Assembly: GCA_023146545.1 (NCBI GenBank)
Contig: JAGLBW010000152.1
Span: 1 to 38,588 of the forward strand
Origin: Cocleimonas sp.
GTDB lineage: Bacteria; Pseudomonadota; Gammaproteobacteria; Thiotrichales; Thiotrichaceae
Direction: 5' to 3'
DNA length: 38,588 nt
This document shows, in pieces, positions 3,172 to 33,684 of the stretch (position 1 is its first letter; each line of letters starts with the position of its first letter). The position numbers were made by a program, and so were the translations under genes. The notes beneath the pieces are model-generated. The model had not been told where the DNA came from, searched no databases, and saw nothing but the letters and a program-made list of their open reading frames with translations.

Positions 3172-4134
3172 TTAAAACTTAATCAATGCCGATCCCCATG
3201 TGAAACCACCGCCAAAACCTTCTAGCAATAAAATTTCACCGCGTTTAATGCGACCATCTCGCACGGCGGTATCTAAAGCTAACGGAATCGAAGCGCCCGA
3301 TGTATTACCGTGTTCACCAACCGTGACAACGACATGATCCATCGACATTTTTAGTTTTTTTGCGGTGGCTTTAATAATACGAATATTGGCTTGGTGTGGC
3401 ACTAACCAATTAATATCTGATTTTTCGAGCTGATTATGTGCCAGTGTTTCATCCACAATACGCCCCAACGTTTTTACTGCTACACGAAACACATCATTAC
3501 CGCGCATTTCAATAAAGGTACTGGCCAATAACTCAGGTTGTTTAGAGATGCCTGCATCGACTTTTAATAAATCGGCATAATGTCCATCAGCATGAAGGTG
3601 AGTTGATAGAATACCCGCCTCTTCACTGGCTTCTAAAACAACAGCACCCGCACCATCACCAAACAGAACACAGGTATTACGATCCGTCCAATCGACAATA
3701 CGTGACATGGTCTCTGCACCAATCACCAAAACACAGCGATGCGAACCACTTTGAATAAATTTATCGGCAATCCCCAACGCATAAACAAACCCTGTGCAAA
3801 CTGCTTGTACATCAAAAGCCGCTCCTCCACCCTTAATTTCTAAACGACGTTGTAATAAACATGCGGTACTGGGGAAGACTAAATCAGGGGTTGTGGTTGC
3901 CACAATCACAAGATCAATATCTTGTGCTGTTTTTCCTGCCATTTCCATTGCAGCACGTGCCGCTTTCTCAGCAAGGTCACAGGTGGTTTCATTATCACCC
4001 ACAATATGTCGCTTTTTTATACCCGTGCGATCAATAATCCACTCATTACTGGTATCTACCATTTTTTCTAAATCATGGTTAGTAACAACCTTAGATGGCA
4101 AATAACTACCTGTACCCGCAATGCGTGAAAACAT
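3172..4134 (-). CDS. fabH: Beta-ketoacyl-ACP synthase III
   Basis: FabH condenses acetyl-CoA with malonyl-ACP to begin each fatty acid chain. The 320-residue protein has the thiolase-fold catalytic triad. These are the active-site Cys at about residue 113 in [10 protein letters not shown], His in [11 protein letters not shown] near 247, and Asn in [12 protein letters not shown] near 277. The N-terminal GTGSYLP and the C-terminal [10 protein letters not shown] are also typical. It lies 25 bases after plsX on the same strand, the usual plsX-fabH pair. In many gammaproteobacteria fabD, fabG and acpP follow directly; here uvrC follows instead, so those genes must be elsewhere. Confidence 0.98.
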
Positions 4135-8829: not shown

Positions 8830-9564
8830 ATGCCCTTTATAATAATAAAAATACGCAATACCCTTCTGTTTTTCCTAATTTTCAGTTCATTTCTTAACTT
8901 AACGGGCTGTACTCAAAGTAAAAAATTAGATAAAGTTGGTGCAGCAGGCTTCAATGCCGAACTCGGTGCAAAATATTTACACGCAGGTCGTATAGAGCTA
9001 GCCAATCAGAAGTTAAAAAAAGCACTTGAACAAAATCCTAATTCAAGTAATGCTCATCATTATTATGCTTTATTACAACAACGCATTGGACGCAATAAAA
9101 AAGCGACACAACATTTTAAAACCGCTATAGGCATTAATAGTGATGACCCTAACTTATTAAACAACTATGGTTCTCATCTTTGCAAATTAGGTCACTACAA
9201 TAAAGCCATTATCCAGTTTAATAAAGCAGCAAATAACCCCTTTTACAAAACACCAGAATTTGCTTATAGCAACTCAGGTATTTGCTTGCGAAAGGTAAAA
9301 AAAGACCAACAAGCTGAGACATATTTTCGAAAAGCACTGACTAAAAACCCTAATTTTGGCTCTGCTCTATTCGAAATGGCAAAATTAAACTATGATCAAC
9401 GAAATTTCCCAAAAGCTCAGGCCTTTTTACTTCGTTATGATGAAAAAAATCCTGTTGCACCCGAATCTTTAAGTTTATGTAGTAAAATCAATACTGCTTT
9501 AGGTAACCTAAAAACGGCAAATGCCTGTTCAGAAAAGAAACTACGATTATTTGGCAATAAATAA
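8830..9564 (+). CDS. pilW: Type IV pilus biogenesis/stability lipoprotein PilW (PilF)
   Basis: PilW (PilF in Pseudomonas) is an outer-membrane lipoprotein with TPR repeats that helps the PilQ secretin assemble and stabilises type IV pili. The 244-residue protein begins with a charged, then hydrophobic signal ending in a lipobox (LNLTGC, Cys about residue 27). TPR repeats follow: AELGAKYLHAGRIELANQKL, AHHYYALLQQRIGRNKKATQ, LLNNYGSHLCKLGHYNKAII, AYSNSGICLRKVKKDQQAE and ALFEMAKLNYDQRNFPKA. The position right after rlmN and before rodZ supports PilW over a generic TPR lipoprotein. FimV, also a type IV pilus factor, is encoded further along this window. Confidence 0.92.
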   Translation: MPFIIIKIRNTLLFFLIFSSFLNLTGCTQSKKLDKVGAAGFNAELGAKYLHAGRIELANQKLKKALEQNPNSSNAHHYYALLQQRIGRNKKATQHFKTAIGINSDDPNLLNNYGSHLCKLGHYNKAIIQFNKAANNPFYKTPEFAYSNSGICLRKVKKDQQAETYFRKALTKNPNFGSALFEMAKLNYDQRNFPKAQAFLLRYDEKNPVAPESLSLCSKINTALGNLKTANACSEKKLRLFGNK

Positions 9565-9939
9565 TACGAATAAGTGTTGATTTAGTCAGTTAATAATATA
9601 ACTTCATCGTACTGATTGAATAGTTCAAAACAAGCACAACTAAAAACTTTCTTCACCTTTAAGAATTAAAGGTCATTCTAATACTAGGTTAAACAAGGTG
9701 ATAAACTAAATTATTATTTTTTATCTCAAAAAAAGGATAAAAATATATCAGAGAGCTGTTAAATTTTAAACCATCAGACTAATGCGAATTAGATCTAAAA
9801 ATAGTAGACTGAACAAGGACGGTTCAAGAGTAAATTTGGAGTGTACATGAACTATGTTGACTAAAAAGATGAATCAGAACATAACCCTGCATATTTCATC
9901 GATATTCCTTAAAACTCCCCTTTGTTAAAATAAGTTTTG
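9565..9939. other. AT-rich intergenic stretch between pilW and the rodZ leader element
   Basis: No coding sequence that I can support lies here; the longest start-to-stop frames are about 24 codons without convincing ribosome-binding sites. A short hairpin CCTTTAA/TTAAAGG with a 3-base loop at 9656-9672 may weakly terminate rlmN-pilW. An AT-only hairpin (TTTTTATC/GATAAAAA) lies at about 9718-9743. Confidence 0.35.
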
Positions 9940-10015
9940 GCTTGATAACCCTCACTTTGAGGATGTGCACGAAATAATGTGTTGTTTCGCGCACACACCT
10001 GATCCCTTATCAAGC
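9940..10015 (+). other. Branched foldable element upstream of rodZ (candidate structured RNA or palindromic repeat)
   Basis: A 76-base segment can fold into a closed three-way structure. The outer stem is 9 bp, GCTTGATAA (9940-9948) with TTATCAAGC (10007-10015). Inside are a 5-bp hairpin CCTCA/TGAGG (9950-9962) and a 14-position hairpin. In the latter, TGTGC.CGAAATAA pairs with TTGTTTCG.GCACA (about 9965-9996), with one mismatch, one G-U pair and a TGTG loop. The unpaired stretch before the closing strand is CACCTGATCCC. It ends 46 bases before the rodZ ATG and has no U-tract, so it is not an ordinary terminator. It is not a tRNA, since the stems do not fit. It may be a cis-regulatory leader, a small RNA or a REP-like repeat. 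Confidence 0.4.
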
Positions 10016-10061
10016 AAACTTAATCAACACAAAATAACGGAATTAAGATAGGCTACGCGTA

Positions 10062-11048
10062 ATGTCAGACACACAACCACAAGTAGAACAACAAATAGAT
10101 GAAGAACATAAGGGAAAACTAGGTGCATTATTAAAAGTATATCGTAACCAAAGTGGTCATGATATCTATGAAGTTGCCGAGGCACTTTGCTTATCACCCG
10201 AAATCGTACGTTCTTTAGAAGAAGAAGATTTTGATTCATTACCTGAGCCACCTTATGTACGCGGCTATCTACGCAGTTATGCTAAATTTGCAGATATTGA
10301 TCCAAAAGAAATTATTAGCCTGTATGAAAAGCAACGCGGCGCTAACCCTAAAGATTTAGAACATCACTTTAAACCCTTGCGTAATTCACATTTAAAAAAA
10401 CCACTCATTTCTCCTGCATTGATTCGTTTAGGGTTAGTTGTCTTACTACTCGCTGCAATTGCCAGTATTGGTTTAATTCCTACAGTTAATCAATGGATGG
10501 ATGAAACATGGGCAGGTTTTTCTCAACAAACCGCCCAAAGAAGTTGGCTCGATAGTAGTGATGATACCCCACTACTAAGCACTGAGATGCCTGCTCCCTT
10601 ACCTGATGACGTTATTATCAAAAAAACAGTTGATCAAGATAAAAAACGAGCACTAACAGAGAAAATACACTCATCAACAGAAACATCCAATAGTTCAGAC
10701 AACAAAGCAATAGAGACGATAAAAAATCCTCTAAAAAAGGAATCTAATGCTAATGATGAGTCCGATACTGATAAAAAAGCAGATGATAAAAAAACATTAG
10801 AAGGAAAAGAAGGGACAAATTTAAAATTTGTATTCAAAAGTGAAGTATGGATGCGAATTAAAGATAAAAACAGAAAAACGGTGTTCGAATCCTTATCCCC
10901 TTCAGGTGATGAAAAAGAAATAAAGCTCCAAAAACCCATGACCTTTCGTATCGGCAATGCCGCAGGTGTCGAAATTTATGTCGAAGGGAAACGTCTCAAT
11001 ATAAAACCATTTATAAAAGGAAGTGTGGCTAATTTCACGATAGAATAA
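10062..11048 (+). CDS. rodZ: Cytoskeletal protein RodZ (HTH/DUF4115)
   Basis: RodZ is a bitopic inner-membrane protein that links MreB filaments to the elongation machinery and controls rod shape. The 328-residue protein has a Xre-type helix-turn-helix domain at about residues 20-90 (GALLKVYRNQSGHDIYEVAE ... PYVRGYLRSYAKF). A basic segment (LRNSHLKKP) comes next, then one membrane helix at 120-140. A long polar, Lys/Asp/Ser-rich periplasmic linker of about 100 residues leads to the C-terminal DUF4115 beta domain (about 250-328; VFKSEVWMRIKDKNRKTVFES). It follows pilW after a 497-base gap, much longer than usual. The genes that normally follow it (ispG, hisS) are absent; yfgM comes next. Confidence 0.93.
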   Translation: MSDTQPQVEQQIDEEHKGKLGALLKVYRNQSGHDIYEVAEALCLSPEIVRSLEEEDFDSLPEPPYVRGYLRSYAKFADIDPKEIISLYEKQRGANPKDLEHHFKPLRNSHLKKPLISPALIRLGLVVLLLAAIASIGLIPTVNQWMDETWAGFSQQTAQRSWLDSSDDTPLLSTEMPAPLPDDVIIKKTVDQDKKRALTEKIHSSTETSNSSDNKAIETIKNPLKKESNANDESDTDKKADDKKTLEGKEGTNLKFVFKSEVWMRIKDKNRKTVFESLSPSGDEKEIKLQKPMTFRIGNAAGVEIYVEGKRLNIKPFIKGSVANFTIE

Positions 11049-29269: not shown

Positions 29270-31693
29270 TTAATGCGCCCTAACCTTACTTACCCCATCA
29301 TTTAACACATCAGACTGAGAGGGATCAGTTTCGGAAAGATCACTATCATCACCTTCATCCTCTTTCAAAGGTTCAGGGAGTGATTCTAAAGCAATGGCTA
29401 AGACTTCATCAAACCACTTCACAGGTTTAATACTCAACCCTTTTTTAACGTTATTGGGCACATCTGCCAAGTCTTTTTCATTATCAGCAGGAATTAATAC
29501 TACGGTAATACCACCACGGTGTGCCGCTAACAGCTTTTCTTTTAACCCTCCAATTGGCAAAACCTCACCACGTAGTGTAATTTCGCCTGTCATTGCAACT
29601 TCAGCCTTCACGGGTATTCCTGTCATTGCAGAAACAATCGCAGTTGCCATACCCACACCAGCACTAGGACCATCTTTAGGGGTTGCGCCTTCAGGAACAT
29701 GAATATGCACATTATTTTTCTTTAAAAATTTACGTGATATACCCAACTGGCTCGCTCGACTTTTTACAACGGTTTCCGCCGCTTGAATCGATTCTTGCAT
29801 TACTTTACCGAGGCTTCCTGTACTTTTAATGCCACCATTACCCGAAAGTACCACGCTTTCGATAGTGAGTAATTCACCACCCACCGAAGTCCACGCGAGC
29901 CCTGTAACTTGTCCGACTTGATTTTCTTTATCCGCACGACCAAAATCAAAACGTTTAACCCCTAAGTATTTTTCAATATTTTTAGCGGTTACTGCTGTTT
30001 TCTTCTTTTTTTCCAATAAATGATCACGAATTGTTTTTCTGCAAATTTTAGAAATCTCTCGATCAATATTTCTTACCCCTGCTTCACGCGTGTAATAACG
30101 AACAATCGATATAATCGCACCATCACTCAGGGTTAATTCACCTTTTTTAATACCATTCGTTTTAAATTGTTTTGGCATTAAATAGTTTCTAGCAATATTT
30201 AGTTTTTCATCTTCGGTATAACCAGGGATTCGAATAACTTCCATTCGATCTAATAAAGGACCTGGAATATTCATACTATTGGAGGTCGCAACAAACATAA
30301 CATCAGATAAATCATAATCTACTTCTAAATAATGATCTGCAAACGTATGATTTTGCTCTGGGTCTAAAACTTCCAATAAAGCAGATGATGGATCGCCTCT
30401 AAAATCAGCTGCCATTTTATCAATTTCATCTAATAAAAAGAGCGGGTTTTTTGTACCGATTCGGGATAGGTTTTGGATTATTTTCCCTGGCAAAGCACCA
30501 ATATAAGTACGGCGATGCCCTCTGATTTCAGCTTCATCCCGCACACCCCCTAACGCCATACGGGTATATTTTCGTCCTGTTGCACGCGCAATAGAACGCC
30601 CTAGCGATGTTTTTCCTACACCTGGAGGACCTACTAAACATAAAATAGGCCCTTTTAATTTTTTCACACGTTGTTGAACAGCTAAGTATTCAACAATACG
30701 TTCTTTAACTTTATCTAAGCCGTAGTGATCAGCATCAAGAATATCTTGCGCCTTGTTTAGATTAGAAATAATGCGTGATTTTTTCTTCCACGGTAGACCA
30801 ACCATCCAATCAATATAGTTGCGAACAACGGTAGCCTCTGCTGACATAGGCGACATCATTTTTAACTTATTCAGTTCGGAAATTGATTTTTCCTTGGCTT
30901 CTTTTGGCATCCCTGCTTTTTTAATTTTTTCTGCTAATTCATCCAGTTCATTAGGTACTTCATCCATATCCCCTAATTCTTTCTGAATCGCTTTCATTTG
31001 CTCATTTAAATAATATTCACGCTGACTTTTTTCCATCTGCTGTTTAACACGCCCGCGAATCCGCTTCTCGACTTGTAACAGGTCAATTTCACCATCGACT
31101 AGCTCTATTAGTTTATCTAAACGTTCTTTTGTATCAATAATCTCCAGTATTTTTTGTTTTTCTGTAATCTTAAGGTTTAAATGTGAGGCAACCGTATCCG
31201 CCAATCTTACAGGCTCACTAATACTGGATAAGGAGGAGAGTACTTCCGCTGGAATTTTTTTATTTAGCTTAACGTATTTGTCAAACTGACTCAGTAGCAT
31301 ACGACTCAGTAATTCTAATTTACGATCATCAGTACTATCTTTTACAGAATAAGTCCCTACATCTGCTGTTAAATAACCTGCTTCCGTACTACTGTTCAGA
31401 ATAATACTCCGCTCAATACCTTCAACTAACACCTTTAAGGTACCATCAGGCAATTTTAACAATTGTAAGATCGTCGCTAACGTTCCGATACAATAAATAT
31501 CATCGACACCAGGGTCATCAACATCAGCAACCTTTTGAGCGACAAGTAGGATTTTTTTGCCCTTCTCCATCGCAATATCGAGTGCTTTTATTGATTTTTC
31601 TCGCCCAACAAAAAGCGGGATAACCATATAAGGATAAACAACAACGTCTCTTAACGTTAAAACGGGAATATTTTTAATTACAGGTTCAGACAT
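29270..31693 (-). CDS. lon: ATP-dependent Lon protease
   Basis: Lon degrades misfolded and short-lived regulatory proteins in the cytoplasm. The 807-residue protein has the N-terminal substrate-binding domain (IPVLTLRDVVVYPYMVIPLFVGR) and Walker A (VGPPGVGKTSLG, near residue 355). Walker B is in PLFLLDEIDKM. The protease domain has catalytic Ser in PKDGPSAGVGMA (near 680) and Lys in GGLKEKLLAAHRGG (near 720), the Lon Ser-Lys dyad. A 30-residue acidic, Ser-rich tail (LKEDEGDDSDLSETDPSQS) extends past the protease domain. It is separated from clpX by about 700 bases and has its own terminator at 29187-29209. Confidence 0.99.
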   Translation of the reverse strand: MSEPVIKNIPVLTLRDVVVYPYMVIPLFVGREKSIKALDIAMEKGKKILLVAQKVADVDDPGVDDIYCIGTLATILQLLKLPDGTLKVLVEGIERSIILNSSTEAGYLTADVGTYSVKDSTDDRKLELLSRMLLSQFDKYVKLNKKIPAEVLSSLSSISEPVRLADTVASHLNLKITEKQKILEIIDTKERLDKLIELVDGEIDLLQVEKRIRGRVKQQMEKSQREYYLNEQMKAIQKELGDMDEVPNELDELAEKIKKAGMPKEAKEKSISELNKLKMMSPMSAEATVVRNYIDWMVGLPWKKKSRIISNLNKAQDILDADHYGLDKVKERIVEYLAVQQRVKKLKGPILCLVGPPGVGKTSLGRSIARATGRKYTRMALGGVRDEAEIRGHRRTYIGALPGKIIQNLSRIGTKNPLFLLDEIDKMAADFRGDPSSALLEVLDPEQNHTFADHYLEVDYDLSDVMFVATSNSMNIPGPLLDRMEVIRIPGYTEDEKLNIARNYLMPKQFKTNGIKKGELTLSDGAIISIVRYYTREAGVRNIDREISKICRKTIRDHLLEKKKKTAVTAKNIEKYLGVKRFDFGRADKENQVGQVTGLAWTSVGGELLTIESVVLSGNGGIKSTGSLGKVMQESIQAAETVVKSRASQLGISRKFLKKNNVHIHVPEGATPKDGPSAGVGMATAIVSAMTGIPVKAEVAMTGEITLRGEVLPIGGLKEKLLAAHRGGITVVLIPADNEKDLADVPNNVKKGLSIKPVKWFDEVLAIALESLPEPLKEDEGDDSDLSETDPSQSDVLNDGVSKVRAH

Positions 31694-32341
31694 AGCAACC
31701 TCTCAGTAAGTTGAATTTAAGACTTGAATAGACGGTTGAATCTGTCCGATAACGACAATATCATCAACAAGTGACTGATGCTAAAGCAAACTAATAGCTT
31801 GCCTTGCCCTTTTTTATTAATCGCACAGACTCGGGATTATTGTAATATTTTAAGCTCAATACATCTGAGCTCAATAGATTCTAGTTTAAAACGAAACCCC
31901 ATTGACCTAGACATTGATTGATGAGTAAGATAAAAGAAAGTGACCTATTCAGGTAATATTAGCTCAGCTCGTCAAGCAGTTATAAAGACCACTTACCACG
32001 AACCCAACTGTTAAGGAACAGACATAAAATAACATTTTGATACACATTTGTCTTTTTGACCCCACTGGAGTGTGCTCATTCATTACACCAAACCCCTCTT
32101 TTCCATCCGCTCAGAAACAAAAACGAGGGGTTATCACTAGCAATGGTGTTATCTCACGTAGACTCTATCGTATCGATTAACCAAACATCATTAGAAAAAT
32201 AATTTAAATTGATTATCAGCAATGTTAGATGATTGGGATGGAACCTAAAAACTCAAGGAAAGGCATAATATACCTTCATAAATCATCTTATTGTAGTCTC
32301 CCCTCCAGATAACAAAAGGGAGTGTCTTCATTTTAAATAAA
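31694..32341. other. Long lon-clpX intergenic region
   Basis: No gene of useful length is seen on either strand. It contains a direct repeat GCTCAATA (31854-31861 and 31869-31876). On the minus strand TTGAGC, a 16-base spacer and TAAAAT form a possible lon promoter in the same place. It also contains the nested inverted repeat at 32085-32149. I looked for sigma32-type elements (CTTGAA with CCCCAT) reading toward lon and did not find a good pair. Confidence 0.35.
32085..32149. other. Nested inverted repeat between lon and clpX
   Basis: AACCCCTC (32091-32098) and GAGGGGTT (32125-32132) form a perfect 8-bp stem. Immediately outside, ACACCA (32085-32090) can pair with TGGTGT (32144-32149) across an 11-base bulge. 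The GC-rich stem stands out in an AT-rich region. It has no U-tract, so it is not a simple terminator. Confidence 0.3.
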
Positions 32342-32394: not shown

Positions 32395-33684
32395 TTAATG
32401 ATTCGAGGATGCGGCTTGTAGGGCATCGCCTTCTTTTGTTTCATAAATGAGATAAGGTTGGGAATCACCCTTAACGACGAGTTCATCGACAACAACTTTA
32501 GTGACATCATCCAATGAGGGCAGTTCGTACATTGTGTCTAATAGCACTTTTTCCATAATGGTACGTAAACCACGCGCACCTGTATTTCGTTCCATTGCTT
32601 TTTCTGCAATCGCCATTAACGCATCATCTCTGAAGTCAAGCTCTGCGCCTTCCATTTCAAATAGCTTTTTATATTGTTTTGTGAGCGCATTTTTAGGCTC
32701 GGTCAAGATACGCACCAAAGCATCTGCATCTAATTCTTCTAATGTTGCAACCACGGGTAGACGACCAATAAACTCAGGAATCAAGCCATATCTCACAAGA
32801 TCTTCTGCTTCAATGTCCTTAATCACTTCTCCAAATTTTTTGCCATCATCAGGGGCTTTCACATCAGCACCAAAACCAATACTGCTTTTCTCAGTACGAC
32901 TTAACACGACTTTATCAAGCCCTGAAAAAGCACCACCACAAATAAAGAGTATATTTTTAGTGTCTACTTGTAAAAATTCTTGCTGTGGATGTTTTCGTCC
33001 ACCTTGAGGGGGAACAGAAGCAACGGTGCCTTCAATCAACTTTAATAGGGCTTGTTGGACACCTTCCCCCGAAACATCACGTGTAATCGATGGGTTATCT
33101 GATTTACGGGAAATTTTGTCAATTTCATCAATATAAACAATGCCTGTTTCCGCTTTATCGACATCATAATCACATTTCTGTAATAATTTTTGGATAATAT
33201 TTTCAACATCTTCACCCACATAACCTGCTTCGGTTAAGGTGGTTGCATCTGCCATAGTAAAAGGCACATCTAATGTCCGCGCAAGGGTTTCAGCTAAAAG
33301 TGTCTTACCACTACCTGTTGGTCCAATCAACAAAATATTACTTTTGGAAAGCTCCACATCATCATCAAAGCTATTGTTACTTTCCATTCGTTTATAGTGA
33401 TTATAAACCGCAACGGATAACACTTTTTTTGCTGATGCTTGTGAGATAACATAGTCGTTTAATAACCCTGTGATCTCGCGGGGTGTGGGTAATTTAGTGG
33501 AGCCTTCTTCTTTTTTTTCATCCAGCTCCTCACGAATAATATCATTACAAAGATCAACACATTCATCACAAACAAAAACAGACGGACCCGCAATAAGTTT
33601 TCTTACTTCATGTTGGCTTTTTCCACAAAATGAACAATATAATAATTTTCCATTATCTTGATCGCCTTTTTTGTCATCACTCAT
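32395..33684 (-). CDS. clpX: ATP-dependent Clp protease ATP-binding subunit ClpX
   Basis: ClpX is the AAA+ unfoldase that feeds tagged or specific substrates to ClpP. The 429-residue protein has the N-terminal zinc-binding domain with four cysteines (C17, C20, C39, C42; CSFCGKSQ ... [10 protein letters not shown]). Walker A is [18 protein letters not shown], with the [17 protein letters not shown] pore/substrate loop. Walker B is [10 protein letters not shown]. The [13 protein letters not shown] segment, the IGF loop region [11 protein letters not shown] for ClpP docking, and the sensor-2 motif [15 protein letters not shown] are also present. It lies downstream of clpP with a 563-base gap. 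Confidence 0.99.

Follow-up and report, generated by a model that had tools for sequence, protein, structure and literature searches.

Between a pilW-like gene and rodZ, in a 38,588-nucleotide contig of Cocleimonas sp. (the whole of this stretch is called the window here), a preliminary description singled out a closed, branched, RNA-like fold at 9940-10015. Three identities were offered for it there: a leader controlling rodZ, a small RNA, or a member of a dispersed family of palindromic repeats. The locus raises the question of whether a strong fold beside this gene is an RNA regulator or the trace of something that moved. The genes concerned, and the space between them, are as follows.

8830-9564, plus strand: gene for a TPR protein, pilW/pilF-like, upstream of the spacer (Pfam TPR; the name pilW comes from the preliminary description)
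9565-10061, plus strand: pilW-rodZ spacer, 497 bases
10062-11048, plus strand: rodZ (Pfam RodZ_C and HTH_25)

A branched palindrome upstream of rodZ

Folding recovered the perfect 9-bp outer stem enclosing two hairpins that had been proposed for 9940-10015. The minimum free energy of this segment was -28.0 kcal/mol on the plus strand (z -6.0) and -28.7 kcal/mol on the minus strand (z -5.0), and on neither strand was any of 200 shuffles equally stable. The inner hairpin of about 14 positions was present as well, but the compensating G-U pairs ascribed to it came down to one: on the plus strand it has 13 pairs, a single G-U and one A.C mismatch. The outer stem proved longer than first noted, continuing past a 2-nt bulge for 7 bp more (TAAGTTT/AAACTTA) and bringing the element to 9931-10022. 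This 92-nt segment folds at -32.5 kcal/mol on the plus strand (z -7.0) and at -33.2 kcal/mol on the minus strand (z -4.9), about equal stability of the two strands being expected of a DNA palindrome. Its parts are listed below.

9931-10022, no strand assigned: whole branched palindrome, extending the earlier 9940-10015 (fold z-score)
9931-9937 and 9940-9948, paired with 10007-10022: outer stem, TAAGTTT-GCTTGATAA / TTATCAAGC-AAACTTA (folding)
9950-9962, no strand assigned: small hairpin CCTCA-CTT-TGAGG (folding)
9956-10004, no strand assigned: eroded short-form repeat copy, its stem formed by 9964-9977 with 9982-9995 (models from which the window was held out; see below)

Among 92-nt stretches taken every 5 bases across the window, 9931-10022 ranked fifth in stability, and tRNA genes overlap four of the ten most stable stretches. 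Inverted repeats of 12 nt or more, their arms no further than 150 nt apart, number 16 in the window. The 9-bp stem by itself is ordinary; the unusual feature is the stem together with the hairpins nested in it.

The same spacer in related genomes

RodZ was matched in 51 of the 57 genomes searched, and no RodZ relatives were found in the viral contigs searched. The eight congeners are metagenome-assembled genomes labelled Thiotrichaceae, Cocleimonas or Leucothrix, with one locus (L110) labelled Aquificaceae. Six of them have a readable pilW-rodZ junction; in the other two, rodZ is truncated by the contig end (G002) or gave no match (G007). The comparison of spacers covered 36 loci, 30 of them from other genera. 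The gap had been called unusually long, and this holds against the other genera (9-128 bases, lengths that are approximate because the start codon is unresolved in several loci) but not within the genus, where the six congener spacers span 122-664 bases.

The fold element was found in none of these six spacers, either with R1, a covariance model of the window's single sequence, or on direct reading; nor did any of them contain the dispersed repeat family described below (model R3, built on 25 loci that gave 47 rows, none from the genome of the window). Four of the six have strong hairpins, unrelated in sequence (z -4.8 to -6.7), and the remaining two are weakly structured (z -3.1 and -2.2). 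Two of the spacers, L088 and L089, are 82% identical and have in common a strong hairpin (z -5.3 and -6.7) with TAAGT/ACTTA ends; its outer letters are similar to the TAAGTT/AACTTA ends of the outer stem in the window, perhaps by chance.

These comparisons bear on the proposal that the fold acts on rodZ, either as a structured 5' leader peculiar to this lineage or as an intercistronic site of processing, and that it would control rodZ stability or translation and would perhaps be bound by RodZ itself. The fold is strong and, as had been stated, 46 bases separate 9940-10015 from the rodZ ATG. Four congeners have a strong, if unrelated, hairpin in the same spacer, and RodZ of Shigella sonnei is reported, in the part of the source available, to bind RNA (PMC4347634). 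A leader would nevertheless have to be reconciled with the absence of the element from all six readable congener spacers, two of which have little structure of any kind, with a minus strand about as stable as the plus strand, as in a DNA palindrome, and with a main hairpin that matches a repeat present at unrelated places. Among the literature matches listed, none described a rodZ leader. The leader option is thus unsupported, and we consider it unlikely.

Relation of the main hairpin to a dispersed repeat

The preliminary description held that absence of the stems from relatives, together with the lack of a second copy, would speak against its reading, and blastn gave just this outcome: the element is single-copy in its own genome, and no match across 63 family genomes amounted to a convincing relative. 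Blastn is too blunt here, because the segment is eroded. The blastn matches there were short (15-33 bases, E 0.009-1); 12 such places, inspected with their flanks, showed no fold and were chance-like, mostly coding matches. Comparison of the spacer with phage and plasmid collections likewise gave short, chance-level matches only. R1 found one weak match beyond the element itself, in the congener G004 (24.2 bits, E 0.02), the sole other match across the 63 family genomes. This match is a member of a dispersed family of palindromic repeats.

The arms of this repeat family are close to TTAGGAACGTGCA[C/T]GAAATAA. The family occurs as a short form of about 50-60 nt and as a long form, roughly 190 nt in length, that contains an internal palindrome and whose arms measure about 20-26 nt; the family has the size and ends by which MITEs are recognized (<500 bp, terminal inverted repeats). 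G004 alone gave 43 blastn matches to the repeat, and seven of the nine genus genomes had a match at E<=0.05, while a congener copy compared by blastn with the genome of the window matched nothing. With R2, a model built from four congener short forms with the window left out, all nine genus genomes had matches at E<=1. R3 gave strong matches (best 40-54 bits) in seven family genomes of other genera (G059, G022, G014, G063, G027, G025 and G034), so the repeat is not confined to one genus. In 24 of 25 tested loci the copy did not lie within an ORF of at least 100 aa, and the copies in the window are in spacers, in keeping with the mostly intergenic position of MITEs. Across copies, 13 of the 22 hairpin pairs changed on both sides and 91.7% of cells were paired; covariation was 0.266 as against at most 0.092 when slid, in an alignment that was fitted to the structure, whose rows are related and which includes both strands of many copies. 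One long-form copy in G004 (locus L197, contig C446) has a near-perfect internal palindrome with a predicted fold of -110 kcal/mol, and is perhaps a young copy.

Other marks of mobile repeats were sought. Target-site duplications were not evident: over 39 copies the flank repeats had a mean length of 3.26, and shuffling of the partners gave 3.05 (sd 0.15). Within the fetched loci we saw no autonomous insertion sequence sharing the ends of the repeat; these loci contain four wide arm pairs, and the ORFs of three of them, when read, were not transposase-like by eye (the one inside the arm pair of L249 we take to be an AraC-like regulator). A GTAG-type motif at the foot of the stem is absent, the arm consensus beginning TTAGGAAC in the 30 copies listed. 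A preserved short form had no match in plasmids or phages, and the arm pattern none in viral contigs. Judged by its sequences, the family appears to behave as a MITE or REP-like repeat and is a candidate MITE. It appears to be undescribed, as far as Rfam 15 (searched with the window only) and a limited literature search extend.

Models built without the window place the main hairpin in this family. R2 placed 9956-10004 first in the window, on one strand with 25.6 bits and on the other with 24.7 (E about 1e-4; next place, E 0.89), and first also in its own genome (E 0.006). R3 also ranked it top in the window and in the genome (28.1 bits, E 0.0096). Because any strong hairpin gains from pairing terms, we also ran tests that give no such advantage. 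A sequence-only HMM (25 rows) found 9958-9994 at E 0.0029 and the other strand of the hairpin at E 0.08, with the next different place at E 1.1. None of 200,000 random hairpins given the pairing pattern of the window scored as high as it did (maximum 31.8, against 37.8), nor did any of 200,000 shuffles of the hairpin's own pairs (maximum 14.4); in both nulls the register was fixed at that of the model alignment, which leaves the figures subject to correction for register and strand. Among the matched positions is the G-U of the stem (CACGAAATAA opposite TTGTTTCG), which is also present in the ends of the long form.

Several results temper this assignment. The remaining matches in the same genome are weak (C143, 21.4-24.8 bits; C83, 20.7; C152, 20.1), and none is well preserved. 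Among 54 genomes of other genera, R3 had a best match of 23-30 bits in six and a stronger one in seven more, which makes 13 with a match at E<=0.5; the genome-wide score alone is thus not decisive. Under the stricter filters of the search in other genera, the window match was not reported, only that on C143. The search that led to the family started, moreover, from the sequence of the window, and leaving the window out of the models lessens this selection effect without removing it. The option of a dispersed palindromic repeat is supported for the main inner hairpin, through profile searches only, blastn giving no copy.

A scan with two-arm position weights pointed to further copies in the window.

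9835-9911, no strand assigned: probable second, more eroded repeat copy, 44 bases upstream of 9956-10004 (two-arm scan)
32012-32085, no strand assigned: probable partial third repeat copy (two-arm score 16.7, left arm 19.0)

The two best two-arm places on the plus strand of the window are both in the pilW-rodZ spacer (27.7 and 21.5), whereas reversed and complemented decoys reached at most 6.6. The lower of the two scores belongs to 9835-9911, and none of 300 shuffles was as high; the covariance models gave this place only weak matches (E 1.6 and 2.1), and its fold z is only -2.0. The copy at 32012-32085 has kept its left arm, the right arm being eroded. The spacer that contains it separates two ORFs, 29270-31693 and 32395-33684, presumably Lon-like and ClpX-like, respectively.

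A palindrome that arose by chance or independently, unrelated to the dispersed repeat, would account for the lack of blastn relatives and for similar scores in six of the 54 genomes of other genera, and the AT-rich window has many short inverted repeats, as counted above. It would have to produce, however, a fold with z -7.0, an arm score that no structure-matched random hairpin attained, the match of the sequence-only HMM and a second copy 44 bases away. We regard such an origin as distinctly improbable.

The outer stem has a different standing from that of the hairpin inside it. Nothing convincing matched 9931-9948/10007-10022, by blastn in the 63 family genomes or by pattern in its own genome, and this stem is not in the consensus of the repeat family. 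In the model alignments, the left end (AGG) of the repeat copy 9956-10004 is overlapped by the right arm of the small hairpin 9950-9962. The pattern of the outer right arm, TTATCAAGCAAACTTA, occurred with up to 3 mismatches at 65 places in the genome, as against 35 for the reversed control; besides the element itself nothing was closer than 2 mismatches, and we claim no family for it. Other copies of the repeat, L229 and L230 among them, likewise have flanks that pair. Pairing between cognate flanks was slightly above that of shuffled flanks, which equalled it in 10 of 200 trials, and the flanks of the window are the second strongest of 39. As a sign of nested insertion this flank pairing is suggestive only. 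We infer that the repeat inserted into or beside a pre-existing palindrome, and that the outer stem is the older part.

The least probable identity, to which we give almost no credence, is a pilW transcription terminator or a free-standing small RNA: the fold is compact and closed and lies in a long spacer, but it lacks a U-tract, as the preliminary description had noted, the promoter and terminator scan showed nothing convincing at it and no terminator-like site on either strand, the sole plus-strand promoter-like site in the region (9690-9717) is more than 200 bases upstream, and Rfam 15 gave only tRNAs over the whole window at gathering score and, at E<=5 over 9560-10100, five weak matches, none on 9931-10022.

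Origin, possible effect and likeness to known repeats

Repeats have entered the same spacer in relatives. In G008 it contains a different palindromic repeat (L110, 3713-3860), with 47 blastn matches in G008, 30 in G004 and 24 in G006, pieces and strands being counted apart; this type was not found in the genome of the window. A relative of it lies in the G006 spacer (L085, about 3368-3495) and shares 86% identity with a further G006 locus along 128 nt. Together with the copies in the window, repeat-derived palindromes are thus present in three of the seven genus genomes with a readable junction. One may imagine that the pilW-rodZ junction recruits unrelated strong palindromes, which are kept because some stem-loop there is useful. 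The stem-loop might then uncouple rodZ from the pilW mRNA through RNase processing or serve RodZ autoregulation. In the lineage of the window, co-option would have given such a role to a decayed mobile repeat lying within another palindrome. We put forward this idea as a speculation with little probability.

The fold is probably a composite palindrome left by mobile repeats, an eroded MITE/REP-like copy within an inverted repeat, and not a conserved RNA regulator. By this account, 9956-10004 would be an eroded short-form copy of a repeat that is dispersed almost always intergenically in congener genomes, and would have arrived by transposition. The outer inverted repeat 9931-9948/10007-10022 was possibly an earlier palindrome that served as its insertion site. 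The pilW-rodZ spacer of the genus would have taken up repeats more than once, with two putative copies here and a different family in two congeners.

The likeliest present state of the element is that of a passive relic. Any effect would be passive too: by analogy with other repeats, the hairpin could protect a co-transcribed pilW-rodZ mRNA, or RNase III or RNase E could cut it. In the parts of the sources available, transcripts of MITEs are described as cleaved by RNase III or as exposing RNase E sites, and MITEs as possible carriers of promoters and sources of small RNAs (PMC10969869; PMC5896051). On this evidence, what mobile repeats leave behind next to a cell-shape gene can be a strong, branched fold that is no riboregulator, and models built from relatives can assign to its family a worn copy that blastn fails to show. 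The locus also points to a palindromic repeat family in Thiotrichaceae-related genomes, the kind itself being ordinary.

Among known systems, REP/BIME elements resemble the family in being small intergenic palindromes of many copies, but differ at the foot of the stem: the consensus arm of the family begins TTAGGAAC and lacks the GTAG motif there, a criterion that also appears in the available part of PMC5896051. Bacterial MITEs such as Correia, ERIC and the BOX/RUP/SPRITE clusters of Streptococcus pneumoniae are, in the part of the source at hand, <500 bp long with inverted ends, located at AT-rich intergenic sites, able to form stable stem-loops, clustered and inserted into one another (PMC10969869), much as proposed here; our family differs in that no parent insertion sequence was seen among the fetched loci and target duplications were not evident, and its nesting is deduced from folds and flanks. 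QMITE2 of Coxiella burnetii, likened by description and not by sequence, differs in the target duplications of 7-11 nt at its full-length copies, none being evident here. It is otherwise, as far as the accessible text goes, similar: a short gammaproteobacterial palindromic repeat with full-size copies (~190 bp) and small REP-like truncated ones, mainly intergenic or in 3' untranslated regions, whose palindrome is itself an insertion target (PMC5896051).
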